Shown: one piece after another, positions 9,076-60,496 of the stretch
Layout: each line of letters starts with the position of its first letter
Position numbering within the stretch: the first letter of the stretch is position 1
NCBI RefSeq assembly: GCF_030463565.1
Contig: NC_134643.1
Coordinates: 122,556,309-122,620,308, forward strand
Reading direction: 5' to 3'
From: Pelecanus crispus
Taxonomy: Eukaryota; Chordata; Aves; Pelecaniformes; Pelecanidae
Length of the DNA: 64,000 bases
Translations under genes and position numbers: made by a program
Notes under the pieces: model-generated
What the model was told of the DNA's origin: nothing
The model's database searches: none
The model's input: only the letters and a program-made list of their open reading frames with translations

Positions 9076-9164
9076 ATGGCGACTAATATCGAGCAGATCT
9101 TTCGGTCCTTTGTGGTTAGCAAATTCCGGGAGATCCAGGAAGAGCAGCAGCAGCAGAACAGCGG
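9076..9164 (+). CDS. SON: SON coding exon 1
   Basis: The start codon at 9076 has G at -3 and +4. The 29 complete codons encode the conserved SON N terminus, ending in a glutamine run. Donor AGCGG/GTAACG, phase 2. The in-frame continuation stops at once in the intron, confirming the exon edge. Confidence 0.95.
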
Positions 9165-12100
9165 GTAACGAGCCTGCCCGGGGCGGCGGGGGAGGCGACG
9201 CAGCCGCGCTGGCGCCGGGGCCGGGGCCTAGCGCGCGGGGAGAGGAGGGGTGTGCTGGGGGTGGGGGGGCGAAGTGCGCGGGCCCCGCCTTGGGACGGAG
9301 GGAGACGGGCCGGGGCCTAGGCCTCTTGTGGGTTGTTTCGGCGTCAACAGGGCGAGGCCCGGGGGCTCGCGGCCTTGCGAGCGCCTTGAGCGAAAAGACA
9401 GCGGGGGAGAGGTGGGGGGAGGGGCGGGCGGGCGCACGCGTTGTCTCCTGGTGAATGCGCACCCGTTTTCACTCGGGGGTTTTCGGTGTTGGTCTCTTGT
9501 GTCGAGGCAAGAGGGGAAGGGGCGAGCGTCTGTGTGATTTATCTTACTGCTCTTCCTACATTTAAGCTCGCCTGGTTTTCCCCATCCTCATCTCACAAAG
9601 TAACCAAAATTGCTGGAGAAGAGTGAGTGATGGGTGCTTATTTTGTGAGGGGAGCCTGTACAAGTTCTCACATAAAGCACGGGGACTGTGGCGTATTCGA
9701 GAACATATTTTCCTCCCTTGTGCCTAATACTCAGTTGTCACAACGTGTTCTGTTGTGAATAAATTAAAGTTAATCAAGAGGTAGATGTTTCACTATAAGC
9801 ATGGCTTCTTCAGGAGGCTAAATACTGTTTTGAAGGGTTGAGTATAATAAATGCTTATGAATTAAAAGGTCAAAAAAGGCTCAAAATTGCTTGTATTATG
9901 TTGATATTTTTTTTGGTTAGTGGAAAGGTAGAAGGCCAGCCCAATGGTGACACAATCCCAGCTGAGCAAGCCAACCCTTCAGATGACACTGGTGCTGGTG
10001 CTGGGAGTCGTCAGAATGATCAGATAGTGCAGAAAATAGAGGAAGTGCTCTCTGGAGCCCTTGATACAGAGCTGCAGTGCAAATCAGGTAAATGAAAATG
10101 CATTTGGCAAATATATTCTTGTTTAAGAAGCTTGTCATAGTGCTTAAAATTGAATCAGTTTTACGGAGATAAAAAAGTACTTTTCAGTACTGCTCCTCTC
10201 ACCGAGCTTCGTCTGACAAGTTGTATGTTTGTTGTAATGTTTGTTAAGTGGTTTTTTTTTTTTTTCCTGTTGTGATTTACAGCCATAGATGGACAGAGGA
10301 ATACATAATGTAAAAATTGAAGCTGGTTATTATATGGAAGCATTACTTAGCATGCGGAAAAAGTTATTTTTCTTTTCTTTCCATTACAATAATGCTAAAA
10401 CATAAATTATATCCACATATATGTATATATAATTGTGCTTTATTTTGTATATCCCTACTTCAGGGTCTCAATGAGCAGTTCTTACTAACAAAGCTAGTAC
10501 TGATGGATAGAAGCATTGTTTGTTGTGTTGTTTTGGATTGGTTTGCACAATTATTTCTAAAAATAATTTATTAGAATTCAGAACTGTATAATTAACTCTT
10601 CTGTCAGAGTAAGATGCTTTGTTGTTTTAAAATGAATAATGCACTTATCTTTAAAAGGTAGATACTCAGATTGCAGTCTTCCAAAGGTTAAGAAATTTTT
10701 GTGTAGCCATCTTGTAACTTCAATAAATTGCTGTATTTATTGTGCCAAAAAGTTGCATATGAGTATCCCTTCTCATGGGACTAGTCCTTTCTGTAAAATT
10801 CCTGAATTGTGAGAGTTAGTGAGATGAAGGCTTTAATTATTGCATTTCTAAACTTCTGGAGTTCAAACATAGGTGACTGCTGTGTGCTTGGTAAGTATAG
10901 TTCCAGAGTGATTTTTTTTTTTTTTTTTTAAGAGGCAGCATAGAAAATTGTTTATTTCATACATTCTGTTTGCATGGTTTTGGAATTGCTTTTTCTTTCT
11001 GTTATGCACAGTGGTTTGTTTACCTTGAGCATTTTCAACAGTCTTTTGCTTATGCTGTACAAGCAGCGCTTTAGGCTGGCTTTTTTGGGGAGGGTTTTTT
11101 TTGTATTTTTGTTCTTCTGTTGTGGAAGAATGAGGCAAGCTAACATGGTAATAAATAGGACCTATTAACCTGCAAGTTAATAAACTTAACCTGTGGTAAA
11201 CGTTCCCACTGTTCATATCTGGGGGAAAAAAGAAACCAACATTGCTGTTGGACAACAGATTACCTGAAAATGCTATGTAGAAAAGTTCACTTGACTCTGC
11301 TTCCATTGTCCTCTTTCATTGCATTTACAACAATGTTGGTGGAAACACTATTTTTTTGTTAAACTGCTGATTCCGTAAAAATGTGTGTGCTTAAAACTAC
11401 CCGAGATACTTGTTTATGGAATCTTAAGTCATGTTCATTTAATAGGATTATAATTACCAATGGTTTTTGAATGATTTTGCATTGTTCACTTGAAAGAGTA
11501 TGCTTTGTAATCACAGCCAGATTATAATTGGAGAATCCATATTGCTGCACTGGCCAGTATAAACATAATCATTGAAGATAACATACAAGTAGACTTGAAT
11601 ATATAGCTCAGATTTAATAGAAATTATAACATGTTGCCTTTAATAGAAGTACCTTTCTCGTGAAAACATGGCACTAGATCCGAAGAAGGGTAAGAACCTA
11701 CCACAGGTTAAATTCAGAGGGAAATGAGATACAGAAGTAAAAGAAGGTGATTTAAACGTCAGTCTTCCTCTTTTCTTTCCCCCTCAGTGGTTGCTTGTCC
11801 CTGCAGTCACCTGAGTTTATTAGTTACTTTCCTGTTGGAAGGAAAAGCTCTGTTAGGTACTTGCAGGTTTGCAGTTGCTTGTGGCAGCTGCAGTCCAGTC
11901 TGAGCAGCTGGTTGCCTGCAATGCTTTAAAGCTTGTTTGGGATTGGGGAATTAGATGCTGTTTCCCCAAATGTGTTTGAAGAACTTAGCGAGGAACTTAG
12001 TAAATGTGCTTAGATGATTTCTAATACTCTAGTAATATTGGGCTCACTTACAAGTTAAAGCCTGGTAGGGGATAATGGGCTGGCCACATTTCATACAGTA

Positions 12101-15100
12101 AGCACTTAGATAGTTTGTCTGGAAAATGGGAGTTCTTGTTTCACTTCCATGTGCAGCTTGCTGTAGTTTAAAAGCACATTTCCAGCCTCCTGGAAGAATG
12201 CACTGCCCAGCTGAATACAGGTGGAAGTATATCCAACTGCTTCTTGGAAAGAGTCATGTTGCCACTGGAACTGTGTTGCTGACCAAGAAGATTTAGTTAA
12301 CTTTATGTAAAAATAACTAATTCTTCTTTCAAAAAGTGAATCCTGAGAGGAAGGGTAAGAGGGCTGAAAGAGAGTGTGTGCTATTTGTGTATGGTAGTTT
12401 AGTGAAGGTGGCATGGGTTTCAAGTTTAAATTTTTTGTACCTTTGTCCAGGTGCTTGGTTGCTAGTCTGACAGATCTTTTTAAATGTAGTTTTAATAACA
12501 TTTACAAGGAAAATACCATTTTTTTTCTAGATGTAGACAAAAATACTGTGAAAAATAGTACTCAGTCTACAAAAAGAAGCTCTACTGGTGAAGATGAAAT
12601 TCCTAGGAAAAAATCAAAGAAGAACAAGAAACACAAAAGCAAGAAGAAGAAGAAAAAGAAGAAGAAAAGGAAGAAAGAGAAAAAACATAAAAAGCAGCCA
12701 AAGGAGTCAAAGTTGAGTGCACGTCATGGAGAACATGCAGACTTGCAGCCTGCTTCTCACTTGATGCCGGAGAAATCAAGCTCCAATTTGAGCGTACAGC
12801 ATGGAGGATTTGGAGATGCAAATCTGGCTGTCCATGTGCAGCCAGAAGAACTGTGCTTAAAAGCAAGTGAGGAGCTTGATAGACAAGCTTTAGGAGTTGT
12901 TTCTCATTCAGGAACTGATTCTCAGCAATCCACAGAAAATCTTGGAAGTGAGAAGGGGACTTTGTGTGCAACAAATCCTCCATTGAATTTAGAAGGCAGC
13001 CAATCTGATATCCAAGAAAATGCTAGCATAACTCAAACTAAAATTTGCACTAGAGATGAACAAATTAAACAGTCTCACGAAAGTATTTATCCTGTAGCTA
13101 TTCATGCGAGTGAAAAGGGTGTTCTTGTTGATACTGGAAGTGATACTTCATCTAGCATCCCATCTGGAGTTGCCAATAAATCTGAAATTCAGAAAGATTC
13201 AGCAGCAACTCTAGCTTCAGAGGTAATAGAAGCACTAAAAGGTTCAGAAGTTACTCTGAAATCTAAAGGCACTGGGGAAGTAAAAGCTTTGGATACAGCT
13301 CTTGAGTCTGAGACCATGGAGGTGTTGAAATATTCAGAAGCATCTCTACAATCTCTGGCACAGGGGGGAGCAAAAGAGTTAGAAGCAACTTCAACATCTG
13401 TGTCTTTGGCAAGTGATGTGACAACAATTCCTAAATCTGCAAATCAGGCAGAACTGAATACTGTGAAGGTAGCTCACATGTCTGTGGCTGTGGAAGAAGT
13501 GAAAATTCCAGAAGCAGCTGAAAAATCTCTGCATACGGGAAATGTGAAAAATGTGGAAAGATCTTTGGAATTAGGGAGCGTGAGCAGAACTTTGGAGCCA
13601 GCCCTGAAGCCCTCAATTATATCTGATAGTTTGAGAGTGATGCAGTGCAGCCCCACAGAGGGTTCAAATGTCTTGAAGGCAGATGTATCATTGCAACATC
13701 CTTTTAAAATATCTGCAGCCACTGCTGTGACCCAGGTGGAAATAAAAAGTGCCAAAATACCCCTGGGACCAGGAGCTGTTACAGAAGTGAAGGATACTGA
13801 ATCAGCTAGAAGCTCTGCGCATATGGAAAATGTGAAAGCTTTGGAAGAAGCTCTGCAGCCAATTGCTGTAGTAAAGCCCAAAACTTTGGAAACAATAATG
13901 GAACCTGTGGGTGTTACAGCAAAAGATCTCCAAGCAGCTCGAGAATGCCTGCAAGTTGAAGTAGTCAAAGATACGGAAGGTACCACTGATCCTGCAACAG
14001 TGCTGAAGGCATCAGGAGTGTTTCTACAACCTAAAATCTTGACAGAAACAAGAAGTGTGGATAGAACCCAGGAATCTGCACTTCCAGCAGAATTGACAGA
14101 TGTGAATGTGGTTGCAGAGCCAAAAGGTTTAAGAGCAACTTTAGAACCTGTAGCAGTTGTGCAGACCTTCATTCCCCGAACAACTCCAGAAATCCAGATG
14201 GCAGAGGGTGTTAAAGGTCCACAAGCAACCATGGAAGTTGCAGCACTAACAGGAGTAAAAAGTCAAGAAACAAGTCAAGCTACTCTGCAACTGGAAAATA
14301 CTAATGCTTCAAAAACTTCAGAATTTACTCTCAAGCCTGTAGCTGTAATAGAGGCAAAAGATTCACAAGGTACTTCATTACTGAGACAACCAGAGGAGCT
14401 GAGAGAATCAAGATCTGAGGGTGAATCAAATCTGAGAGGTTTGGAAGCAACTCCCCTGTCTCTGCAGAAAGAAGACGTGAAAGGTGCAGGAGGAGTCCTA
14501 AGACCAATGGCTGTGGAGGAAGCAAAAACTTTGAAAACAGCTTCACTGTCTTTGCAAATGGAAGGTGTGAAAACTTCAGAAGAAGCTGTGTGTGGTGGGA
14601 CTGTGGCCAGAGGTTTAGCAGCAACACTAGATTCAGCAGCAGTGTCAAAAGCTTCAGAAATAAATCTAGGTAGTATGGCAGGAGTAGAAGCAGGCTCAGA
14701 TGCCAGTCTCCTAGCGATGAAGGTTGGATCTGAGAGACCAGTGAAAAGTTTGGAAACAAGTCTAGGACCTGTAGCAGGGACAGAAAGGAAAGATTCAGAA
14801 GCAGACCTTGAGGGAGCCAGGACAGAGATGAAGACATCTTCATCACACCTGCACACGAAAGGTGTGAGAGAGATAGGCGATCCAGCGTCTGTAGGTGTGG
14901 CAAAGATACAAGCTCTGGAAGCTGTCTTGCAGCCTGGAACCATTGCAGTGGCAAGGGGCTTAGGGCAAGATGTGTGTTCTGAAGCCAAAATTGGTAGCCA
15001 AGTCTTGGAAGCAAGTCCAGGACTTCTTGCCTTAGAAGAAAGGTCAGAAAGGACTCCTGAATCTGCGGTTGCATGTGTAAGCATGGAACCAGTTAGAGAG

Positions 15101-18100
15101 TCTGAGGCATTAGCAAGAATGATGCATTTGAAAAACACAGCAGAGAGAGAATCGAGACCTGCAGAAACAGTCACAGAACCTCTTGGTGCAAGCAAAACAA
15201 AGAGTTCCATCATTTCACAGTCTCAGGTCATGACACATACAAGAACCTCACAAACTGAGGTGGTAGGGGAGATAAAGGATTCTGAACTAGCTGCCAGTTC
15301 TGCCACTGTAGAAGTGAGAGGTTTAGACAACTTGTCGGAAGTTGAGGCAGTTGCAGAGGTAAAAGATGTGGAAACAAGATCAAAAACTTCACCCTTAACG
15401 CAGATGAAAACTTTGGAAATGGTTGTGGGATCTGAAACAAGGACACTAATGCAAGGCTTGGTAAGGACATTGGCGTCTGAGGTGGTTACAGAAATGAGTC
15501 ATTCTGAAGTTGCTCCAGAAGATCCAAATGAAGCAAAGGCAAGGAGCAAAGAAGCAGTACTAGAACCTGTGCAAACAGTGACGGTGCAAACTTTAGAAAC
15601 AAGTTCAAAATATGTGCAGGAACAAATAGTAGGTCATTCAGAAGCAGTATTAGAGTCTTTGCCCAGAGTAGGGGAAAAAACTGTAGCATCAGAAATAGTG
15701 ACAGAAGTGAGAAACTTGAAAGGAACTTCGGAATCTAAGATTGCGACAGATGTGAGAACTCAGGGACCTACTGTAGAATATATAATTGCAACAAGGAAGA
15801 CAAGTACAAAAAAAAATGAGCCCTCGCTTATGAGTATAAAAGATTTGGAAGAAGCTTCAGAAACGGAGAAAGCAATGAAAGCAAAAGATTTGGAGCCAGC
15901 ATCAGAAGCTAGAGAAGTGAGGTTGTTGGAAAGTATGAAAGAGTCTGCAACAGTAGAGGTGCAGGGTTCTGAAACAGTTGAAGAGCCTGAGGTACACATG
16001 GATATCCAAGATTTGGAAACTTCCCAAAAGTCTGAAAATGCGGGGGCAGTGCATGTTTTGGAGGATGTTTCAGAAGGTGTTCCAGGATCTTTGCACACTG
16101 AAAAGCAAGAACATCTGCAGGCAGTTCTAGAAGCAAAACCTGCAGAATGGAAGAGTACAGAAGAGGCTCCAGAAATCTTGAGTGCTGCTGATATGAAATC
16201 TTCTGAAGCAGTTCCAAAACCAGGGGACATGAAAGATCTGGAAACAACACTAGAACATGAAGTGGCAGCAGAAGTACAGTGTGCAGAAGGGGTGCAGGGT
16301 CAACAAATGGAGGATGAGAGAGTTCCAGATCAAGCTCAGGAATGCGAGATACTGGTTGAGAAGAAAGATGCAGAGCAAACTCAAGCATCTGAGCCTTTAA
16401 TAGCAGGAACAATTTTTAGTTCTTCACATACAGCAGATGAAAAAGATTCAGCAGGGACTCCTGAATCTGAAATAATCAGCGACACAAAACAGGTGGAAGC
16501 AGCTCCAACTCATGTGGCAGAATCAAAAGACTTGGAAACAGCTCCAGTACCTGAGACTGTTGTAGAGTTGAAAGATACAGAAGCTGCTGTGGGGTTGGAG
16601 GCAGAGACAAAAGATTTGGAAGCAGCTCCAGTACCTGAGACCGTTACAGAAGCAGTTCCAGTACTTGTGGCAGAGGCAAGCCAGTCAGAAGCCATTCCGC
16701 AGGCTGAGGCTGTCAAAGAAGCAACTCCAGAACAGGATTCGGAGAAAAGAGATTCAGAAACATCTGATGTGCAACCTGATGTGGCAGCACGAATGAGGGA
16801 GACTCTGATGAGACTTGAGAAAGTTATTGAAAAAAGTAGCCATAGAAGCAGTGATAAAAAACATGATGCAAAGAAACAAAAAAGGAGTCGCTCCAAGTCT
16901 CAGTCCAGGTCTAGGAAGCGGAAGAAAAAATCAAGGTCGCATTCTACTTCCAGGCGTTTGACCTCCAAAAGAGCACGTTCTAGGAGCAGAAACTATTCAG
17001 ATTCCAGAAAAAAGCATTCCAAATCTAGATCCCGATCTGTGGAGAAGAGAGAGAGACGAGCATCTTCCCGGAGGTCCAGGCGTAGACGTTCCAGGTCGTC
17101 TGACCGTTACAGGTCTAAATCCAGATCAGCAGAAAAAAGAGGGAGCAGATTGTCGTCTGGGAGATCCAGACGAAGGCGTTCCAGATCATCTGACCACTAC
17201 AGGTCTAAGTCCAGGTCAGTGGAAAAGCGGCTGTCCTCCCGAAGGTCCAGACGTAGACGTTCCCGGTCTTCTGACCGCTACAGGTCTAAGTCCAGGTCAG
17301 TGGAAAAGCGACTGTCCTCGCGAAGGTCCGGGCGCAGACGTTCCCGGTCTTCTGACCGCTACAGGTCTAAGTCCAGGTCAGTGGAAAAGCGACTGTCCTC
17401 GCGAAGGTCCGGGCGCAGACGTTCCCGGTCTTCTGACCGCTACAGGTCTAAGTCCAGGTCAGTGGAAAAGCGACTGTCCTCACGAAGGTCCGGGCGCAGA
17501 CGTTCCCGGTCTTCTGACCGCTACAGGTCTAAGTCTAGGTCAGCTGAAAAGCGACTGTCTTCGCGAAGGTCCGGGCGCAGACGTTCCCGGTCTTCTGACC
17601 GCTACAGGTCTAAGTCCAGGTCAGCGGAAAAGAGGGGGAGCAGGTTGTCCTCCTGGAGATCCCGCCGCAGACGTTCCAGGTCCTCTGACCGTTCTAAGTC
17701 TAGATCCAGGTCTTCAGAAAAGAGAGGGGGTAAAGAATACTCATGGAGGTTCAGACACAGAGGGTCTGGGTCCTCTGATCGTTCAAAATCTAGGTCAAGA
17801 TCTGTTGAGAAGAGGGGTCGGAAGGCATCTCTACGGAGGTCTAAACGTCAGCGCTCAAAGTCCTCTGACCGTTACAAGTCTAGATCCAGATCAGTAGAAA
17901 AAAGAGATCGAAAGCAATCATCGCGGAAATCTAAACGTCAGCGCTCAAAGTCCTCCGACCGTTACAAGTCTAGATCCAAATCAGTGGAAAAAAAGAAGGA
18001 GTCCTCACGAAAATCTAAGCGTCGCCGCTCAAAATCTTCTGAACGTTACAAGTCTAGGTCTAGGTCTGTTGAAAAAAAGCGCAAGGAATCTTCAAAAAAA

Positions 18101-21100
18101 TCCAAACGGAAACGTTCCAAGTCCTCTGATAGTGTTAAGTCAAGGTCCAAATCTATAGAAAAAAGGGAGAGTAAGTTATCCTCAGTGAAGTGCAGTAGCA
18201 AGCGTGTGGAGTCTTCTGAACTTCAGGAGTCAACCAAATGTCCTGATAAAGTAGAAGTTCCTGAACCTTCTTTTGCAAGTGAAGACAGCTCCTCCAAATC
18301 CTCTAATGGTCCCACGTCAGTAGCTTTGCCTGTTGAAAGAATAAATGGCCCAGAGCTGCCGCCAGCATCTGAAAGTGGATTTTCCAAAACTTTTGATAGT
18401 CTTGAGAAAAGCTCCTCATCTGTTGAGAAAACAGCGGGTCTGCAGCCTTCTGTGATGTCTGAATTTGATAGCTCCAAAACCCCAGATGATGAGGAATTGA
18501 GATCCATGCCTGTGGAAAAAACGCAGGTTTCAGAGCTTTCTGTGACATCTGAAAATGGGTCAGCTGAAAAAGCAGTGACTATGGAGTCTTCATCACTATG
18601 TGAACTTACATGCTCCACATCCAAGTCAAGATCCTCATCTGTTGAAAAAAGGGGAGATCCAGAAACTTCTTCGGTAACAGAATTTCAGCTCTCCGCATCC
18701 CATGAAGATGAGTCGAGATCTGCCTCTCTCAAAGAAATAGAGGGTCCAGAGCCTCTTCTGACACTTGAAAGTGGATGCTCTGTATCTTCTGATGATTACA
18801 AGACAATCTCCTCATCCTCTGGAAAAATGGAGGTTCAGGGGTCATCTCTGATGTCTGAAAGTGTACTCCCTGACTTGTCTGATGGTCATGAATTGAGACA
18901 TATCCCTGTTGAAAAAACAGAACTTCAGACTTTTTTGCAAGTACCTGAAAGTGATTCTACCAAGTTGGCTGACAGCCCTGAGTCAAGGTCACTATCTTCT
19001 GAAACAGTAGAGGCTCAAAAATCTTTTGCAGCACCTGAAGTTACATGCTCTGTGTTCCCTGATGTCTGCGAGTCAGCCTCCTTGCCTATTGAAAAGGGCC
19101 AGATGCAGGAGCTTTCTCTGGCTTCTGACAGTGGGTGCTTCAAATCTCCTGATGGACATGAATCAGGATCCAGCTTTGCTGCACAAATAGAGGAGCTTCC
19201 ATTGACGTCTGAAGGTGGGTCCTTCAAGTCACCTGATGGAAATGAACAAAGATCTTTGTCTGTTGAAGAAGTCAAGGCTCCAGATGTTTCCCTGACATCT
19301 GAGTGTGGTCCTGCTGAGATCTCGGATGACCTCATTTCAGTGTCATCTTTTGAAAAAATGCAGGAAGTTGCACTGGCAACTGTAGGTCAGAGCTGCAAGT
19401 CTTCTGAAGTTCATGAGTCCAGATCATCTGCTGACAAAGATTTAGATGGTCCGACACTTTCACAAGTGCTTGAAATTGACTGCTCTGAATCTTCTGAAAT
19501 GCATGAATCCAGATACCTGCCTGCTGCAAAAATAGAGGGTACAGGATCTTTATTGATGTCTAAAAGTGGAATTCCTGTGTGCCATCAGGGCCATAAATCA
19601 AAACACAATTACTTTGAGAAAACAGAAGGTGCAGTACTGTCGTTGGCACCTCAGCTTAGGTGTTCTGTCTTCCCTGAAGGCTATGAATTGACATCCACTG
19701 CAGTTGAAAAAACGGAGATACAGAAGCCTTCTCTCCTTCTGGAAAGTGAGTTTGTCAAATCTGCTGATGTTTGTGAATCAGTAAGCACACCTACTGAAAA
19801 ACTACAGGCCCCAGTGACTTCTCTGATATCTGAAGGTGGGCTTTTCCTGTTGCCTGATAGTCATGAATTGAGACCTATCCCTGCTGAAAAAGTAGAGGTG
19901 CAAAAGTCATCTGAACTGAAATGTATTGTATCCCCTGATGGCCACAATTTGAGATCTGCCTATGATGAAGAAATACAGGTGCAGGAGGCACCTCTGATAC
20001 CAGAAAGCAGATGTTCTGTTTCTTCTCATGGTCATGAGTTGACATCCACCCCTTTTGAAAAAGTTGAGGTAGAGGAGCCTTCTCAAATGTCTGAAAATGA
20101 ATACACAATAGAGCTTGATGGCCCAGGGTTGACATCAACCCCTGCTGAAAAAACAGACATGCGGGACCTTTATCGGATGTCTGAAGAAAGATGTTCAGTG
20201 TCCATTGAGAGCCAGGAGTTGCGGTCACCTGCTGTTGAAAAGGTAGAAGTGCAAGAGCCTGCTCTGACATCTGAAAATGAATATGCTGTATCTTGGGAGG
20301 GCCAGGAGTTGACATCTAGCTCTCCTGAAAAGGTAGCAATGCAGGAGGCTTCTGTAGTACCTGACAACGAATATGCTGTGTCTTCTGAAGATCATGAATT
20401 GCCATCTTCCCTTGCTGAAAAAACAGAAGTACAAGAGTGTTCTCTGCTGTCCGAAAATGAATATGCTGTATCTCCTGAGGGCCAGGAGGTGACAGCCAGC
20501 CCTGCTGAAAAAGAGGTGCAGGAGCCTTCTCTGACATCTGACAGTGAATGTACCATCTTCCCTGAAGGCCAAGGATTACAGTCTACCCTTAATGAAAAAA
20601 CAGTGGTGCAGGAGCCTTCACTAGTATCAGACAGTGAATATGCTACATCCCCCAAAGGGCAGGAGTTGTTCTCTGCTCTTACTGAAAAAGCAGAGGTGCA
20701 GGAGTATTCTTTGCTGTCTGAAAATGAGTATGATGTATCCCCTGAAGGCCATGATTTGAGATCCAGTCCTGTTGAAAAAGAAGAAATGGAGGAACCTTCT
20801 GAAACATCTGAAAGTGAAAGTTCAATGTCCGCTGATAGCCAGGAGTTGCAGTCTGCTGTTGTTGGAAAAACAGAGGTGCAGGAGTTGTCTTTGTCTGAAG
20901 GTGAATGTGCCATGTCTCCTGAAGGTCAGGAGCTGCAGTCTAGCCCTGCTGAAAAAATAGAGGCTAGGGAGCCTTCTCCAACATCTGAAAATGAACATGC
21001 CATGTCCCCCGAAGAGTATGAATCAAGATTGACACATGCTGAGAAAACAGATGATGTGGATTCTTCTTTGACATCTGAAAATGACCATCTTTTGTCTTTC

Positions 21101-24100
21101 GAGAGCCAGGAGGTAAGATTCACCACTGTCCAAAAAGCAGATGTGCAGGAGCTTTCTCCAACACCTGAAAATGAACATGCAGCATCCCCTGATGGCCAGG
21201 AGTTGAGATTCCCCACTGCTGGAAAAGTGGGCAGTCTTGAACCTTTGACGCTAAACGATAGAGCCTCCATGTCCCCTGATGACAGTGACTTGAAATCCAT
21301 CCCTGTTGAAAAAATGGATGATGCAATGCCTTCTTTAATGCCTGAAAGTGGGTGCTCCATGTCCCCTGGTGGCTACAGTGTGAAATCTGGCCCAGGTGAA
21401 GATACAGGGGATCTAGAGCCCTCTTTGATATCTGAACGTAGACATTCCACATCCTCGTATCAGGAAGGTCATGAGCTGAAATCTCCTATGGAGGAGGAGG
21501 GTCTAGAGTCCTCTTTGACTTCTGAACATAGACGATCTGTGTCCCCTGAGGGCCATGACCAGAAATCTACCGTAGATGAAGAAATGGATGATCTGGAGCC
21601 CTCTTTGACACCTGAACATCGGCGCTCCACGTCCCCTGATGAGCATGAGTCAAGATCTAGCATTGGTGAAGAAGCAGAGTATCTGGAGCAGCCTTTGACA
21701 ACGGAACGTAGATGCTCTGTGTCTTCTGATGAGCATGAGTCAAGGTCTACCACTGGGGAAGAGGTAGAGGATGCAGAACCCTCCTTGACAGCTGAACGAA
21801 GAGACTCCACATCGTCTGATGAGCATGAGTCAAGGTCTACCACTGGTGAAGATGTAGAAGATGGGGAGCCCTCTTTGACAGCTGAACGTAGACACTCCAC
21901 GTCGTCTGATGACCATGAGTCAAGGTCTACAACCGGTGAAGAAATAGAGGATTTGGAACCTTCTTTGACAGCTGAACATAGGCGCTCCGTGTCTCCTGAT
22001 GGACGTGAGTCAAGGTCAACCACTGGTGAAGAAGCAGAGGACCAGGAGCTCTCTTTGACAGGTGAACGTAGACACTCCACATCCTCAGACGAACATGAGT
22101 CGAGATCTACTGCTGGTGAAGATGTGGAGGATATGGAACCCTCCTTAACAGCTGAACGAAGAGATTCCACATCATCGGATGAGCAGGAGTCAAGATCTAC
22201 CACCGGTGAAGAAGTAGAGGATATGGAGCCCTCTCTGACAACTGAACACAGACGTTCCACATCCCCTGATGGGCGTGAATCGAGGTCTACCACTGGTGAA
22301 GAAGCAGATGATATGGAGCCCTCCTTGACAGCTGAACGAAGAGACTCCACATCGTCAGATGAGCAAGAGTCAAGGTCTACCACTGGTGAAGAGGGTGAGG
22401 ATGGAGAGCCTTCTTTGGCAGATGAAGATAAACAGGATTCCATACCTCTCGAGAGGTTGGAGGAACAGGACTCTTCCTTTATACCTGAAAGTAGGCGTTC
22501 TGAGTCTTCTGAACGTGAAGAATCTAGATCCAAATCTGTTGATAAAATATCTGACAAAGAGTCTTCACGAAGATCTATAAGCAGACGCTCAAAATCTCTT
22601 ACTCGCCAAAAGAGTCGATCCACATCTGCTGAAAAAGTGACAGACAAAGAGTCTTCACGGAGATCTAGACATAGACGTTCCAGGTCTGCTGCTCACCAGA
22701 AGAGTAGATCCACATCTGTTGAAAAAACAGCAGACAAAGAATCTTCACGGAGGTCTAGACGTAGACGCTCCAGGTCCACTGCTCGCCAAAGGAGTCGATC
22801 AACATCTGTTGAAAAAACAGCAGACAAAGAGTCTTCGCGGAGGTCTAGACGTAGACGCTCCAGGTCTGCTGCTCGCCAAAGGAGTCAATCCAAATCTGTT
22901 GAAAAAACAGCAGACAAAGAATCCTCACGGAGGTCTAGAAGCAGACGCTCCAGGTCTTCTCAGCGCAGATCCCAGAGATATGATACAGAATCTCGCTCTA
23001 GACGGAATCGCTCCAGATCAGTAACACGGAGAAGAGCATCAAGATCAAAATCTAATCGTCGCTCTCGGTCTAGCTCATTGTCACGTTCAAGGCACAGAAG
23101 GAGGAGTAGGTCAAGGTCAGCATCAAGAAGGCGACGTTCTTTATCAAGAGACAGGCGTAAGAGGTCTCAGAGAAATCGATCAAGATCCACTGACAGAAGA
23201 AGAAGAAGATCGGATTCAAGAGATCGTAGAATATCACTCAGATTACGGAGCAGGAGTCGAACGCCTCTTCGTCAAAGGCGATCAAGGTCCAGAGGAAGAA
23301 GACGGAGCTCTAGTAGGTCACCAATTCGACTACGGCGATCAAGATCTTCAGGGAGAAGAAGATATAGCAGATCACCTGATCGCCGTAGGTCGAGGTCATC
23401 AGAACGATTTTCAAGCAGGTCACCTAAACGTCTTACAGACTTGGGTAAGTGATAATTTTATTTTCAGTAGTTCTATGGTTGGGTGATACTGTGCTCATTC
23501 ACTAGTCTTATTTTAACATAACTCTGTAGCTTTCATAAGGAATTTCTTGGAAGTAGTTTTGTTCATTACTTTTAGGCAGTGACTTCCAGTAGGAACTTTT
23601 ATGTTGGAGCTGAATCAGTGCTTACCATTTGGATGAAAGTGTATTTAGAGCATCTTGGTTATAGAGCTCTTACACGAAGTTAGTGTGTTGCAGTCTGGAG
23701 GAACACGGTTCATTGTACTAGTAAAGGCCAAGTACTCTGTAAGAAACTAAAGAATTTCTAGTTTTCCCGAGAACAAATTGCTCATGAAAGAACATTTGAA
23801 CGTAAGTGCCAGTGGGAGAGTTCTTAGCTGTGTTGTCAGCTGTAATGCTTGTTTATCTGTTTCCATTACTCTGGCTTGTCTCTTTCCCATGGTAAGAACT
23901 TAATGGGAAGGGAGACTCGTTTCTGAAAATATTCCCAGGCCCAGCTGACTGGAAAAGAAAAGAAAAAATGCTAATGAATTGCATCTTTTCTCTGTGACTG
24001 GAGGAAGAGAGGCCTTGTAGTTTCCTTGGGTAGTAAATTATGTAAGGAGAAAGAAGGTTTTAATTTTGAGAGGCGAGCTTTTGCACAGTGTATGAGGAAA

Positions 24101-27100
24101 CCTCCTTTTGTGGACCTCGGGTTCTGATTCTTTTAGTCCTGTTACCATGGAAGCCCCTCTAGTAGCGAAGTATTTTTGTACAGAACATGAGAATTAATGA
24201 GCATCCTTGAATCTGCCTTCATGCTTTGATTACACAGCAAGTACGTATCTATATACTTCTGTTGCTTAAGTAATAAAGGAATGTTGTCCTTTTAGGATTC
24301 TTGTAAAGCTGTATGCTTGCAGAGACAGTGGTAACTCATTTATTTGCAAACTGGCAGATCAAATAAGATGTACTTTATTTTTATTCCATATTTCTGTGAT
24401 AGGGCCGCATGTGCTTTTTTCCTTAATAAAGCAAAATACTGTTTTATTAAGTTTTGTGTGTAATTGTATTTTATGCAAGTACACATATTATTCAGTGCTT
24501 ATTCTGTTGTAAGTAGCTTTCAGGCTACATACTGGGGGATTTCCTCAAGACCTTTGAGTGCTTTTCAGAGATAGCTAAGAATTAGACTTTGGAATTTATG
24601 CTGTGTAGAAATGACCCAGTATTCCAAAAATAGAACTAATTGGTGAAGTGAAATAGGAACTTCTGGGGCTTGAAGGATTTTGAGTGCTGTAATTTGGACT
24701 CACATGCTTTGTGTTAAATTTGCAATTTCACTTGTCTGTTGTGTAGACCAAATTTAAAAAAGTCTGGAGCAACTTAGTACAATTTTAGTTATTTTCACAG
24801 AACATAAAAATGCACAGTGTGGGTAAAATCTGTTGTTTTCTCTTTGTGCTTTGTTTAGTCTGCCAGAAATGCTTATTTGTTATTAAAACAAGAATCTGTA
24901 AAAATAATAATTCTTCTTAAAAAAATAATTTTTTTTTTTAGACAAGGCCCAGCTACTTGAAATAGCCAAAGCTAATGCAGCTGCCATGTGTGCTAAGTCT
25001 GGTGTTCCCTTACCACCAAGCCTGATGCCTTTGTTATCTCAAAAGAAAGATGACAAAGCCAATCAGAAGTCATCAAGAGACACACTAAAGGAGCTCACTG
25101 AGGTAAGTGAGAACAACAGTATCAAACCTGAAAATAAGCAAATTGGGTTTTTGTGACTTCTAGGCAAGCTGTTGTTCTGTGTGCTTGGTTTGCATGTAAG
25201 CTGACTTGTCGTTTGAGCCCTTATGCTCTACACAGCTCCTGCATCATCAGTGACCGTTCTGAAATACCTGTTTAAGGCAATAACATCTGAAATGAAGCAA
25301 TGTCAGATTTCTGAAAAGTAATCTCTTTGTTGTGTGTGGACTAGTGGAAGCAGAAGTACTTATTAGTAAAAAAGCTGAGATTGTGCAGATACAGTGTGCA
25401 GAGGTCTTAAGTTGTTTATCACGTAACCTGACCAAGATCCAGTGTAGCTAGTGCTAATCTGGAAGCCCAAAGCCTGCCCCTACCTAGCCCTTTCCAACTG
25501 TGGGAATCTGTTGGACAGTTCCTGTTCTGTTGAATCAAAACTGGCCACAGAAGCAGTGTGGGCCATTGTCATATGGTAGTGTGCCCAAGTGGAGAACCCT
25601 TCCAGAGCCTGTTCAGCTTCTTGCAAAGCTAGCTGCATTGTCTTTCCTCTCTGCAATGTAACCCACAAACTGCTTCCAGTTAGTTGGGAGCCAGCTAATG
25701 AGTGTAGATAATACATTTTGTTGATTAGCTTTCCAGATAGTGGAGGCTTTTCCTGCTGCCTAAAGACTGTGCTTCAGTCATTGTTTGGAGGTGTCTTAGC
25801 ACAGGAGAGCGTAGGAATCTCTTCTAACAAGGACTGATGAGAACAATGCCATCAATGTGTCTTGAATTTTAGTGGTGGAGCTGCCTGTTTGCTCCTTATA
25901 TGTATGCCAACAATCAGGTCGTCAAACAGGTGTGACTTACAATGGTATGAACTTAAACTAGAATTAAATCAGATGATGGCTTCACTTTACCGGTATTATT
26001 TCCTCAAATACTACATTCTCAAATGTATTGTAAGTCTGCAGTATACTTTTCAGGAATGGGGACATAACAGAAGCATGATACTAGACTATAATATTCTCAA
26101 ATGCATTTTAGGCTGACTAGATTTTACTGATCATGGTTATCTGTGCTGAGTGTTTACCAGTATAGTGTTTTTCATCATAAAATTCTAGCCTCTCTAGAAT
26201 TTCTTTTTTCCCCCTGGAGGTTCTCTTCTCATTTCTGCAGTATCCCCATAGCACCTGCATATTTTATATTCCACTTCTGTTGAATGTAAAATGGGGATGT
26301 CTTGCATACCTGGCCAACATCAAAATATTTCAGAAGAAATCTGAGATCTTTTGGAACCATTGCTTCTGAATAGGTCCCTGCACTACCAGTGGAACTTAGA
26401 ATTAGTAACTAATAATTCTTAGATTTTCCTGTGTCGTAGTTTTGTGAGTTATACTGAAGTTTCTATCAGATTGCAGTATGCTAGTTATGTGGGATGCCAA
26501 ACAACCGGTGAGTTCCTACTCTGGAATGTTTGCAGCCTTAGACACACATTCTGCAACTAGCACTGTGTAGCAAGTTTTACACTGCTGACATCTTATGTCT
26601 GTGAAATTATTCGCTGCATGAGTGCCTAGCAAACCTTGGTAGCTATTTGATAATGTGTAGAAGACGTCAAAAGTACATATATTGATGACGTTGCTAAAAG
26701 GTTTTCTCAAATTATACCTCCTGCTTTAGAAAAGAAAAACACTTTTGTAGAAGTGTTCTTTTTGTATGTTTTGGTTGAAAGTCCAGGTTTATTCAGAGTT
26801 GTAATTTTTTTTTTTTTTAAGAAATGCAAGAAGATTGCTCAAAGCACAGATGATGTGATAGTGAACAAACCTCATGTTTCTGATGAAGAAGAGGAGGAAC
26901 GTCCTTTCTATAATCATCCTTTTAAGCTCAGTGAACCCAAACCTATTTTTTTCAATTTAAGTGTGAGTACTTCTTTAATTTTCAGTATTTTAAATTGTGG
27001 TTATTTTTAAATAATGCAAGTAATTTTACAGAAATTAAACAGGGCTTGATAATCTTGGTGAAATTGCACTGGAATGTTGTTAAAAGTACTCTTGCTATAA

Positions 27101-39100: not shown

Positions 39101-42100
39101 GTAATGAAACAACTTTCATTTCTAATTCCTTGTTGTCTTGATTCTGTTGTAGATGCTTAAGAGTCAGCATAGTGTAAAAAAATTGTACTAAAGTTATCAG
39201 ATTGGATTCTGAATTCACACATTAGAAGAGGTGCTTTTAATAAAGTACACTTTGGAATTTAGAACTCTCTTTATTTCCAGTATTTGGAATTTGTTCAGGC
39301 TCTGGTAATTCCTATATAGGAACTCGGGGCTTTGATTTTTAGCTACGAATAGCAGTATTTTGATTCTGCTCTCTCCTTTCTACACCACTCCTAACCCCCA
39401 AATTAGCACATTTACAGGTGTGAGGAGAAAGCTGTGTAACATTAAAATGACCTCATCAAGAAATTGCACTCTGTCATTTGTGAACTGAATACACGCTGGT
39501 GATAATGAAACAGGTGTTTATATTGAAAATTCTATCATTGCAAAGCAGGTACAAAAGAGGAATCGGAACCCAGGGTGACATTGACTGGGGTTTGTATGAT
39601 TCTCGGCATGGTTGCCCTTTTCTTATGAGAGGTTCCTGGAAAAGAGAGGGGAGGATGAAAATGGAAGTAAGTAAAAGCCATTCTAGGTGTATAGATTGAG
39701 GCAGTTCATATCGAAGAAACTGATTGTCTCTGTGTACACACACACACTGCATGGTCTGCACCAGTCAGAAAAAAGTTGAACTGGAGAGGTGCACTTAGCC
39801 TCTCTATTCTTCCATCAGAGCACTTTGTTATTGAACGCAGCATCCAGTTGCATGATTGATAGGTATTTACTGTTTAATAGGTAAATATTTGGAGAAGTCC
39901 TGCCACAATCTTCAGCAATTATTTTTTGCAAAAATTTTTTAACACCATGTAGAGTGGGGATTACACACATATGCATCATTGCATTATTAGTGTGTGTCAG
40001 TTGCCAATTTCAAATCCCCGTAAAAATATAATATCCTTAGTCTCTGCAAAAGTAAGACTTCTGGTTTTGTTTACATACAAATTGAAACCAAGGACTTATC
40101 AGTCCTTTGTCCAAATCTGGGAAATGCTTACTTTTGCAAGCACAACTCAAAATAAAGGAAAAAGAAGCAAAAAAAAATTGTTCTAGTAATTTGCTTTGAT
40201 AGTAAGTAAAATTTTCACAAAAATACTAGGCATTGTATCATCTAACTTACTATGCGAAATAACCGATGGACTTATCAGTGCCAGTGTGTAAACTTGTATA
40301 TTTTAAGGCAAGCAATTTTTTGCTGTGATGGAAATGATTGACTTACTTACTTGGGTCAGCGGGGGGGGCAGAAGAGAGATGATAGTTCACAGAATAACCT
40401 GTGAACTTTCACCCCTCTATATGGAAACTTGTTTCAGGGTCAAATCCTTGTAGCTGCCTTCTTGCCACGGTCAATGCCAGCCCTACTATTCACAACACTG
40501 CGGCCATCGAGGCCTAGGTACGTAAACATTTAAGGAGTTTTTAAAGTTCTTTACATCAAAACAGATTTTTAAAATTTCTGTTTATAAGCTTTCACCATTT
40601 AACAACTATTATGTTAATGATGATTTGAAAGAATGTGAAGACTACTGCTGCTAAACTGTGTGGCTAAGCGCCTTTTTTTCCTTTAAAAAAAGAAAAGAAA
40701 AACCTGTATGTTTCATGTGGATTTTCAGAGTAGAACTTGAATGTGCAACTGCTGTATAATAAAATGGGGAAAAGTTTTGGTTTTTTTTATATTTAAAAGA
40801 CGCCTAAACACTATGTGAATGTCATTACTAAATGTGCTTGTATTTTGTTCAACAACTAGGTACACTTGGCACACATGTTGCCAGTTAAACAGTTAACACT
40901 GCCTCCTTTCACAAGATGAGAAGAGATGCATTGGAACCAAAGTAGTGTGTTTAAAAATGGACGGTTATCATTTTATTAAATACATATGTCTGAAATGGGT
41001 CACTTGCCACTTTTGGATTGCATTAGAATTTTCTTAAGTTGTTCTTTTTTGAAAAGATTGATTTGTGTCTCGTGTGTCTGCGTGAATTCTGGTTTATACA
41101 AGATGTTAATGTACATAAAGCTAAGGTGTATTTTTTTTGAATTGAGTCTGTGAAAGGTTGTTAGAAACATTTTTTGGAAGCTCCCCCTTATTTTTTAAAA
41201 CCCCAGTGCTAACTTTAGGACTTGTTTTACTTTTCTTTTTCTGGATAGGATCAGTTCTTAAGAGCAGCCCCTGTAACTGGAGGAATGGGAGCTCAGCTGA
41301 TGAGAAAAATGGGCTGGAGAGAAGGAGAAGGGCTTGGAAAAAACAAAGAAGGCAGCGTTGAGCCTATTATGGTCGATTTTAAGACAGATCGAAAAGGTAA
41401 GCCCTTCCTTAAATGTCTTACGGCAGTATAAACTTCTCATGTCTGGACACAGGCAAAATAACTTTGAAGTAGTAAGCTTTTCCTGGGTACAGCTTCACTG
41501 TAAAAATTAACAGAATGATGTAGATGATTTTGGTACTAGTTTTTCAAGCCCTGGATTATGCATATGGGTATTGTCCTTATGCCTGTGAACTCTTCCAGAT
41601 GTTCTTTAACTTCCCCTAACCTTCACCTTCCATTTTAAAGAGTGCTTCTCAGTGGCTCTTAAATTAGGGATGTGCTTCAGTTGGATGTACGGAGAAGGCA
41701 CAGACAGGGAAATGAATTGTGGAAAAGACGTTGTGGTTGGTCTAGAGAAGGTGGCTGAAGCAGGAATGGGGCAGGATAGATGATTGAGTAGTTCGATCAG
41801 TTTTAAACTGGGGTGAAGGACAGAGGTGAGAGCTACGGAATTGAGTTACTGTCGCCTTTCAGCTGAAGTCCTGACATGATTAGACTGTCACACTGATGTT
41901 TTTAGGTCTTCCAAATGGATTCTGTTTCCTTTTTTGTCCATCTGATCTCTCTGCTGTTCCATCTCCTAGTTTGATCTGCTGCCGGCACCTCTGCTCAACT
42001 ACAGTGTTTCCCTGATTGTTTTCAAAGATTGCTTTAGCAATCTTTCTTCCTCTTCTTTATATAGTCCATGGCCACAGGTGGAGAACTGTTGGCACTTGTC

Positions 42101-51991: not shown

Positions 51992-57796
<5,805 letters not shown>

Positions 57797-57840
57797 GGCG
57801 GAGCGGAGCGGAGCGGCCGGGCGGGAGCCGCTGTCCCGGC

Positions 57841-57852
57841 TTGGCGCGAAAA
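57841..57852 (-). promoter_or_regulatory. DONSON: E2F site in the DONSON promoter
   Basis: The minus strand reads TTTTCGCGCCAA, a full match to the E2F consensus TTTSSCGC extended by CCAA. It lies about 45-56 bases before the start codon, where S-phase genes commonly carry it. This fits DONSON as a G1/S-induced replication factor. Confidence 0.6.
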
Positions 57853-58060
57853 GGGGCGAGCCCCGCCCCTGGGCGGCGCTGGGGGAGCGCGGCCGCCGCC
57901 GCCGCCATTTCCTGCGGCCCCGCCGGGCGCCCAGCGGCCCCGCGGGCGGCGGGGACGGGGTCCCTGAGGGGGCGCCTCGGTGGGGCGGGGCGAGCTCTTC
58001 CCGCCGGCCCCGGGGACCGCGGCCGCTGCCCTGCCACCGCTCTCCCACCCCGCTTCGGCT

Positions 58061-60496
58061 AGTAAATAGGAAAAGCGTTACTGCTGAAAGACGTAAATGG
58101 GTTTCTGAATCCATTCTGAAACCGGCCTGAATGGATTTCTCCAGTCAGGTATGGGGGAAATCGCCACACGGCTGCACCAGGACAAAAATCACCCGTGAAG
58201 ATACTAGAACACGGCTACGGTTGTGTGAAATGTGAGACTAAACACACACTGCGCATATTTGGGGTAGAGAACTAGTTCTGATTGCGATTTGCAGCACTGG
58301 CCGGGGCCCACACTGGAGGATTTTGCTTCAGGCTATCTTGCAGCAAGGCACCTATCCCCTCACCACCAAAAAATGGGCAGCAGTTTTCAGCCCATGCCAG
58401 ACAGATGATCCCTTCCTGAAGGCCATTCAATAAAACAACAATGGATTATAAAACTAATCCAGACACAAAGCTGGTTTTGAAGACACGTGGCTGCCCTTAA
58501 TGGCACTCTACGCGTCATCCACACGTCATCTGGCTGCGTGGGGCTGGAGCTCACAGGAGCAGAAGCATCCTCGGCAAAACCCGGGCAAGAGCCTGAGCTG
58601 GCACGGCTCCTGGCGTGCCCCTCGGGGTTATTAGCGTCACGGGAGACCACGGGCAGCCTTCACAGGGCTGTCAGGTCAGCGTACAGGTAGCGGCAAGGTG
58701 TACGAGACTTCCTTGTCAAAGCTACGAAGGAACAGGCAAGCATCTGGCAGCCTTTCCCTCCAGCGCTGGAGAGCCTTGCTCTCGTGCTCAAAACTACTTT
58801 CTCCTTTCTTCTGTCAGGGGATGTGTGAAAGAGGCACTTGCTTTGGGAGCCTCATGAATCCTCTTGTTAAGCACATGTAAATCTAAACCTAGCGTTATTA
58901 AAGAGCATTAGAAAATGCTGAGACATCTCAGCCAACTAAGCACACCAACAGGGAGCTTCACGCTCGAAGTGCAAAGAGACATTTGCTTCATAACCTGACC
59001 CAGCTGAAAGACTAAGACCACTTTGGCAAAAGCTAGCCTCTTGTACATGGGGTTCAAAAAGCATTTATATATGTAGTAAGGAGCAACATATCCACTGACA
59101 AAAGAGCTAGTAAAATAAAAACTATACTATAAAATCTTTCTTCTGCAGTTTTGTCAGTGGTTGTTCCTGTTTTATTAAACCTTATTTTTTAACTCTTGTT
59201 TCCTCTGATCTACTTTATTTTGCAACATTTAAGCTAAAACGAACAACATCAGGAAAAAATAAGCATTTGGGTACAAAGCTTCAGAATAAATATCAAACTA
59301 ACAGAGGATTCACATGCTTTAGATATGTGTGTGTACACAGGTGCACAAAAGCATCACTTATTTTCAAGGCTGCATTACATCACATTAGTAGTAAAATAAG
59401 ATTTACTCATGCTTTTTTATATGCTTCCCTTGCATCGTTTATCAAGAACCTACTACAAGTCCAGTGAACAAGAGAAGATAGATTAATCATGGTTCTAGAT
59501 AATCTATGTTCACTCAAATGTTCCAACTTCCTGCACTGGTTCAAAGTGCTAGTGTTCACTGTTTGAGCCATCCACACAGTGAAAGTGAGTAGCACACTTG
59601 AACAGAAAAAGTATTTTTGCTCTCAAATAAGAGCAAGTAGGAAGCCATATGCTTTGAAGAAAGAAAAACAGCAGTTCCTTCCCTGCTGCTGATTTGCAGA
59701 TGGTTCACGGTAACAGAGGGTGCCGGATAAACAGATTTGAGCTGTGCTAGGCACAGGACTGCGGTTAAAAGATGGGAAGTGAAAGTGCACAGCATAGGAA
59801 GGTCTTACTGGAAAGACATCAAAGAAAACATTACAGTAACAAGATCCATAAAGTGCCTCTAGCATCTGAATGACATGATCAGCTTATGGACTCTAGATTT
59901 ACTAGGTTTACTGCCTGGTTGCTAAATGAAGAAAATCAGCTGTAGGGGGAACTCTTACTGTCAGTGCCACATCGTTCCCCTCTAGCATCCTTGCCAATTC
60001 TGAGGGTTTTGCCTGTCTTCCAATTAAATAACAATTTTAAAAGTGGATTAGAAAGACTTAAGCGTACCGCAGAGAATACTCAGTCTCAGTGTGGTCAAAA
60101 GCAAAAGGTAACATAAAGGTGACTATTGGTAGGGGCTGGAGATGGGAGGACTAATAAAAACACCCAATTTTTTTTTTCCTTTAATTTCTTATGGTTGATA
60201 AACAACAGCAACTGAGTTTGCCTGTAGATGTTACTGCTATTTGTAACTGGGGCAGGGGAGACAAGATTTGTGTGTCAAGACTGCCTCTTTAGAAGTTGCT
60301 GATGGGAACATTCTGCTCAACTGGATCAAAAAAAAAAACCCCTGAAGTCACAGGAGCTTCGCAGACCATTTGTGCTGAGGTACAAAAGATCTTTAAATTC
60401 TGGTTACAGAATTATTTTAAAGTGTACACTAATTTACTTCTCAAATACATTACGTTTCTTTATCTTCCACAGGCTTAGAAATCAGGAAATTGTGTG
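58061..60496. other. Spacer between DONSON promoter and CRYZL1 3' end
   Basis: AT-rich after 58100. The part just below 60496 is the CRYZL1 3'UTR; the end is uncertain because the nearest hexamer on the minus strand is a variant ATTAAA at 60180-60185 and a canonical AATAAA occurs only near 59213. No other exon or RNA gene recognised. Confidence 0.5.

Follow-up and report, generated by a model that had tools for sequence, protein, structure and literature searches.

Exon 3 of what we take to be the SON gene of Pelecanus crispus carries a tandem array of 68 units that share one 30-residue register, in which RS-type (arginine/serine) basic blocks flank a long acidic middle, and these units very probably share one common descent. 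The array lies within a stretch of 64,000 nucleotides (here the window; positions 122,556,309 to 122,620,308 of the forward strand of contig NC_134643.1, assembly GCF_030463565.1), and all coordinates below are window positions. As an explanation of the whole, we propose that one 30-residue (90-bp) array arose by local duplication and divergence and would work as a phosphorylation-tuned cohesive segment of SON; we give this reading a probability of roughly 0.55, lower than that of descent alone because of its mechanistic part, in which gene function, disorder, phosphorylation and cohesion are inferred. Charge patterning is thought to influence the choice of condensate, and the origin of opposite-charge blocks is rarely traceable; in this gene, approximately 68 related units would connect RS with acidic sequence, with intermediates preserved, in the scaffold of a major nuclear body.

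The 30-residue array and its charge blocks

The open reading frame (ORF) at 12413-23452 makes up the bulk of the 10,914-base exon 3 (12531-23444, plus strand). Residue numbers start at the first ATG of this ORF, which differs from the protein start, and exon 3 corresponds to residues 41-3677. Pooled decoding with a circular profile tiled residues 1540-3528 (17030-22996) without gaps, as 68 units and a partial 69th in a single 30-column register; the pooled profile, which was trained on the same stretch, scored 2736 bits, whereas 30 column-permuted versions of it averaged -631 and reached -427 at most. The initial annotation had placed the family at 17040-22960, which is right to within about 40 bases, and the four motif classes that it quoted were all found in the ORF.

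Along the plus strand, the pooled decode separates 14 basic, 36 degenerate, 13 acidic and five basic units ahead of the partial 69th. The first basic block, RS1 (units 1-14 of 27-30 residues each, unit 1 being partial; 17030-18205), has a net charge of +141 over 392 residues. It is followed by the degenerate, mildly acidic units 15-50, which form the blocks D1 and D2 (18206-21355; -134 over 1,050 residues), by the acidic block A (units 51-62 and the 26-residue border unit 63; 21356-22498; -70 over 381 residues) and by the second basic block, RS2 (units 64-68; 22499-22948; +35 over 150 residues). The C-terminal RS tail, composed of the partial unit 69 and then RS sequence (22949-23443), has a net charge of +64 over 165 residues. 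The transitions between blocks are gradual: unit 14 has a charge of +7, units 15-17 have charges of -6, -1 and -2, and units 63, 64 and 65 have charges of -5, +2 and +8, respectively; border units 14-16 and 63-64 are intermediate in character. RS1 units 3-7 have a common three-residue gap, which accounts for the 27-residue form described in the initial annotation.

The period was also detected by other means. In RS1 the autocorrelation had peaks at lags of 27, 54 and 30 residues; the peaks of A lay at 60, 90 and 30, and D1, D2 and RS2 each peaked at 30, in every case above the maxima of 200 shuffles. Tandem Repeats Finder reported DNA arrays of 81, 84 and 90 bp in RS1 (the 81-bp amplification with 95% DNA matches), of 90 and 270 bp in the acidic block and of 90 bp in RS2, and no DNA array between 18165 and 21576, in the degenerate middle. 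Such an absence would be expected had the middle been of greater age or under weaker constraint, with amplification of the other blocks at a later stage. In the acidic block, the 270-bp higher-order period (21595-22426) corresponds to three units and stands beside the 90-bp period. An antisense ORF of 392 codons runs across the same block (21469-22647) and is probably a by-product of repeated codon use.

The register was not detected upstream of the array in the RS lead (residues 1466-1539; 151 of 200 permutations were equally good), and it was marginal downstream in the RS tail (residues 3513-3677; 7 of 200). An nhmmer search of the window for further DNA copies, at E values up to 1, returned 71 matches, 68 of them within 17000-23000; the three outside had E values of 0.031 (in the RS tail of exon 3), 0.47 and 0.47.

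Per residue, the charge is +0.36 in RS1, where the charged fraction is 0.53, as against -0.13 in the degenerate and -0.18 in the acidic units. Units 1-68 sum to -28, and exon 3 has a net charge of only -11 over 3,637 residues. The sequence charge decoration (SCD) of units 1-68 is -175.7, and none of 200 shuffles of unit order was as low (mean -9.5, minimum -48.4). At 14 of the 30 columns, lysine or arginine is present in at least two-thirds of the copies of the basic-end units; the middle units are acidic or neutral at most of these columns and retain the x-E-K/E core. At column 8, K/R occupies 0.94 of the 18 basic units and D/E occupies 0.81 of the 48 acidic-side units; the corresponding fractions at column 27 are 0.67 and 0.91. 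Other columns are shared by both classes: columns 3, 11 and 23 are mostly serine in both (0.94-1.00 of basic and 0.77-0.79 of acidic-side units), column 15 is mostly acidic in both (1.00 and 0.83), and columns 10 and 16 still have K/R in 0.62 and 0.64, respectively, of the units on the acidic side.

Evidence for common descent

Each of the five blocks (RS1, D1, D2, A and RS2) was aligned separately by circular profile training, and the profiles were corrected for block composition. These block alignments contained four mis-gapped RS1 units, corrected only in the pooled decode, and they underlie the profile-shift, cross-decode, codon-class, consensus full-codon, 15-residue, flank and chunk tests. 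In all 10 block pairs, the profiles aligned best in the same register, with best scores of 16.8-49.0 and second-best shifts of 4.2-10.0; none of 2000 column permutations matched the observed score in nine pairs, and 8 of 2000 did so for RS1-A. The starting phase of the seed was picked by eye, and since all 30 shifts were compared, this choice does not make the peak. When the order of profile chunks was permuted without the true order, no permutation in 1000 equaled the observed score in six pairs. In all 20 directions, cross-block decoding scored higher than any of 60 column permutations, any of 40 target shuffles and the reversed target.

A hidden Markov model (HMM) of the degenerate units, run with HMMER, recognized domains of at least 5 bits in every block: 4 in RS1, 15 in D1, 20 in D2, 12 in A and 3 in RS2, those in D1 and D2 being its own units. 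Neither the reversed protein nor 20 block-shuffled decoys contained a domain of at least 5 bits, the best decoy reaching 3.4 bits. The alignment for this model was taken from the pooled decode, which had seen all blocks, and the block-by-block cross-decode agrees with it. The acidic-unit HMM matched acidic and degenerate units and reached just 2.8 bits at best in RS2. The degenerate units bridge the acidic and RS1 units.

A tree of 67 of the 69 units over 90 columns, built with no outgroup and with most of its forks unresolved, placed RS1 and RS2 together on one side of a split (Shimodaira-Hasegawa-like approximate likelihood ratio test, 98), and charge class on this tree needs one change. Replacement sites were included, so that the grouping of the basic units may be helped by amino acid likeness. 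With third positions alone, the free tree needs five changes of charge class; a tree constrained to group the basic units nevertheless obtained a better score than any that the free search found (P = 0.85 in the approximately unbiased test). Rooting the tree to pick the RS or the acidic state as ancestral was rejected, there being no outgroup to root with.

Codons provide further evidence, to which an amino acid alignment is blind. By column, agreement between blocks in serine codon class (TCN or AGY) was stronger than in any of 400 permutations for 9 of the 10 pairs, non-serine codon identity was higher than in any of 200 permutations for eight, and the arginine class was above chance in seven (0-2 of 200 permutations as good). 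At every codon position, unit-averaged identity was above all 29 false registers in all 10 pairs, the third-position values between blocks being 0.37-0.51. In a stricter test with one consensus row per block, the six pairs that do not involve RS1 agreed at 18-23 of the 30 third positions (best false register, 10-13); with RS2, agreement was 18 for A (best false register, 10), 19 for D1 (13) and 18 for D2 (13). RS1 agreed with RS2 at 14 of 30 (10). By block consensus, silent-site kinship is therefore present in 7 of 10 pairs, the exceptions being RS1-D1, RS1-D2 and RS1-A. What ties RS1 to the family is its link with RS2 together with the first two codon positions, and kinship is weakest for this block.

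A natural control is available in the same exon. A second, separate degenerate array of approximately 15-residue units with the consensus LESEAVAEVKDLEAT (12770-16807, plus strand) was recognized by autocorrelation at lag 15 and by a circular profile, which scored 837 when motif-seeded, compared with 231-312 for 12 shuffled sequences with random seeds. This array fills the N-terminal half of exon 3 (residues 120-1465), and most of the 10.9-kb exon is therefore repeat-derived. Its role as a source of the 30-residue unit found no support: profile permutations were as good in 1746 (RS1), 612 (D1), 1022 (D2), 92 (A) and 605 (RS2) of 3000 trials, gapped decoding was equaled in 89, 10, 31, 7 and 77 of 150 trials for the same blocks, and a shift of 15 was the best self-shift in none of the five. 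The acidic block is nominally the closest. Since this serine- and glutamate-rich array has no convincing match to the blocks, such composition alone is not the cause of the likeness among them. Near the start of exon 3, at 12617-12684, a lysine-rich stretch is encoded by an AAG-type short tandem repeat.

Constraint, mechanism and alternative explanations

The pooled within-block ratios of nonsynonymous to synonymous divergence (dN/dS; Nei-Gojobori) are 0.14 for RS1 (interval 0.01-0.26), 0.32 for A (0.20-0.47), 0.39 for RS2 (0.19-0.85), 0.57 for D2 (0.37-0.84) and 0.66 for D1 (0.38-0.89), values that are rough because dS is high (up to 1.4). The intervals come from up to 100 column bootstraps with infinite values dropped, using 40 random pairs per bootstrap in blocks with at least 40 pairs. 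Within-block identity at codon positions 1, 2 and 3 is 0.82, 0.78 and 0.53 in RS1, 0.81, 0.78 and 0.58 in A, and 0.52, 0.54 and 0.51 in D1. Constraint looks stronger in RS1 and A than in D1 and D2, from which RS2 is not distinguishable.

We propose that the array grew through repeated local duplication inside exon 3 and that its units then diverged. Within SON, a nuclear-speckle scaffold, it would act as a multivalent cohesive segment tuned by phosphorylation: at low phosphorylation of the RS serines, the basic ends could bind the acidic middle within one molecule or between neighbors, and RS kinases, by neutralizing the basic ends, would weaken this pairing. SON and SRRM2 are required for speckle formation, and the length of SON among metazoans ranges from 610 to 5561 amino acids through extension of its intrinsically disordered region (IDR) (PMC7671692).

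Several results weigh against the reading that we favor, both in its claim of one origin and in its mechanism. As to origin, the absolute score was negative in 9 of the 20 cross-block decodes, the acidic profile set just 255 of 371 RS1 residues in register, and chunk-permuted profiles equaled the observed score in 7-13 of 1000 trials for 4 of the 10 pairs (RS1-D1, 13; RS1-D2, 10; D1-RS2, 12; A-RS2, 7). The single-unit HMMs of the acidic and RS1 units failed to match each other above decoys (the acidic HMM reached at best -2.4 bits on RS1), and the RS HMMs are uninformative, as they scored RS-rich decoys as high as acidic units. The initial annotation expected one profile to match RS and acidic units alike and named the absence of profile similarity between them beyond shared serine as its refutation: the degenerate-unit HMM does match all five blocks and the block profiles of the two classes do align, but the refuting result is obtained in part, in that similarity is missing between single-unit HMMs of acidic and RS1 units. 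The codon permutations, which take related units as independent, left the serine class at chance level for A-RS2 (58 of 400 as good) and non-serine codon identity at chance level for RS1-D1 (14 of 200) and RS1-D2 (20 of 200); the arginine class signal was absent for D1-D2 (98 of 200) and D1-RS2 (110 of 200) and marginal for D2-RS2 (10 of 200). Consensus full-codon identity was at chance level in 6 of 10 pairs and significant only in D1-D2, D1-A, D1-RS2 and D2-A (7-13 of 2000). The consensus third positions of RS1 failed against D1 (12 of 30; best false register, 12), D2 (10; 10) and A (11; 12), and the silent link between acidic and basic units thus rests on RS2. The HMM failure and these three of four RS1 pairs would suit an independent origin of the RS and acidic arrays, their period and serine positions being a convergence of low-complexity serine-rich sequence. 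Such convergence would nevertheless have to produce one unbroken phase over 68 units, the likeness of acidic and degenerate units to RS2 at silent positions, the columnwise agreement of serine codon class in nine pairs, and a family likeness that the 15-residue control does not have; we regard it as highly improbable. The proposal that all of the roughly 65-70 units descend from one ancestor and diverged to opposite charge classes is, in our view, well supported by register, block profiles, codon kinship and tree together.

As to mechanism, the dN/dS interval of RS2 overlaps those of D1 and D2, and full phosphorylation of the serines adjoining arginine would take RS1 to -19 and the SCD from -176 to +588; this would abolish the contrast, and the charge blocks therefore belong to the unphosphorylated chain. 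Moreover, segregation of R and D into blocks shifted model domains from the speckle to the nucleolus, alternating domains going to speckles, and local neutralization, including that by phosphorylated serine, has been proposed as a need for speckle localization (PMC9324279). The suggestion in the initial annotation of a block-charged polymer suited to self-association is accordingly supported only in part: the charges are segregated and the exon is near neutral, but the contrast is lost upon phosphorylation, the blocks are unequal in strength and blocky R/D domains go to the nucleolus. The same arrangement of basic ends, acidic middle and near-zero exon charge could instead make the middle an intramolecular brake, which would occupy the RS ends and block RNA binding or condensation until RS phosphorylation or RNA competition released them, with a net anti-cohesive effect; given a middle that is much longer and weaker in charge than the ends (-0.13 to -0.18 per residue versus +0.36 for RS1), we consider this doubtful, if worth keeping in mind. 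Mostly neutral turnover, in which SON can bear changes in IDR length, repeats come and go, and the charge blocks simply reflect which unit was amplified last, would fit the wide length range of metazoan SON (PMC7671692), the absence from zebrafish Son of the repetitive region present in human SON (PMC7906411), the 81-bp amplification in RS1, the dN/dS of 0.57-0.66 in the degenerate units and the similar identity of all codon positions in D1. It appears unlikely nonetheless, in view of the amino acids kept in RS1 and A while third positions diverged, and of the near-neutral charge of exon 3, although one gene cannot show a selected balance.

Beyond the cohesive, phosphorylation-tuned segment that we propose, one may speculate that a single ancestral RS unit gave rise to its own counter-charge within one exon, yielding a self-complementary, near-neutral scaffold switched by RS kinases, with selection on charge balance and not on sequence; we think this improbable as it stands. 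If it were true, array length would be free to change while charge balance was kept. The array makes it testable whether evolution conserves charge balance during sequence turnover.

The SON gene and related systems

Coding exon 1, which begins with MATNIEQIFRSFVVSKFREIQEEQQQQN (9076-9164; ATG at 9076) and which we assign to SON, reads in frame and without a stop into exon 2 (9921-10087, defined by acceptor and donor sites and an open frame once joined) and exon 3 (12531-23444; acceptor TTTCTAG, donor TTGG/GTAAGT), all on the plus strand. The splice sites join exons 1-3 with the frame kept open, and the predicted N-terminus is MATNIEQIFRSFVVSKFREIQEEQ, presumably that of SON. Exon 3 ends, RS-rich, in SPKRLTDL upstream of the G-patch, and the next ORF (24929-25156), whose Pfam RSRP match stays under the cut-off (24.4 versus 27 bits), carries AQLLEIAKANAAAMC, a succession that we take to be a mark of SON. 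Further downstream on the plus strand, ORFs cover the G-patch exon (41249-41431; PF01585, E = 2.8e-17), an exon encoding the initial portion of the double-stranded RNA-binding domain (45569-45778; PF14709, E = 1.7e-10; PF00035, E = 1.3e-05) and an exon with its remainder (46251-46496; PF00035, E = 1.1e-05, profile positions 31-65 of 66); these coordinates are ORF limits and not exon ends. The domain order in the window is thus RS-rich region, G-patch and double-stranded RNA-binding motif, and because of this order and of both presumed SON ends, we take the gene to be vertebrate SON. Human and zebrafish SON are described as having an RS domain, a G-patch and a DSRM (PMC7906411). A Pfam scan of the exon-3 ORF gave a sole match, LeuA_dimer at 14.8 bits, under its cut-off of 24.9, and the relatives of solved structure, judged by name, were only other dsRBM and G-patch proteins. 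On the minus strand, a GC-rich ORF lies at 57134-58144, and a Pfam scan of 57134-58114 gave nothing at E 0.1; the ORF resembles the N-terminus of DONSON, which would fit the gene order next to SON.

Among the papers listed in searches of the open-licence literature, most subscription papers being outside its scope, we found no description of a 30-residue SON family or of charge-inverted blocks in one family. Repeats and length change in SON are already known; the 30-residue family with charge-inverted blocks would be new. The repeats of human SON are other short motifs, unlike the 30-residue family described here. Zebrafish Son, unlike exon 3 here, is without the repetitive region (PMC7906411). 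Two further papers concern the codon bias of messages for arginine-rich mixed-charge domains (R-MCDs; PMC12629991) and maps of low-complexity regions (PMC9470157), and not the SON array.

Like the array, R-MCDs are charged, low-complexity nuclear-speckle sequences in which charge patterning matters; they are described as consisting mainly of R and D (PMC9324279), whereas the basic units here are RS-like and poor in acidic residues, the counter-charge lying for the most part in a separate block. Arginine and acidic residues are not interspersed in one domain as in an R-MCD: RS1 has +0.36 charge per residue, and the acidic residues lie mostly in other units. A different parallel is provided by ASXL1, which to our knowledge is unrelated to SON. 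The opening of the abstract mentions no repeat family (PMC13042807), in which respect ASXL1 differs from the array. An autoinhibitory role, like that of the brake considered above, has been reported for the ASXL1 IDR, a disordered chain that acts on condensation and in which, as in the array, a basic segment is joined to an acidic one (PMC13042807).

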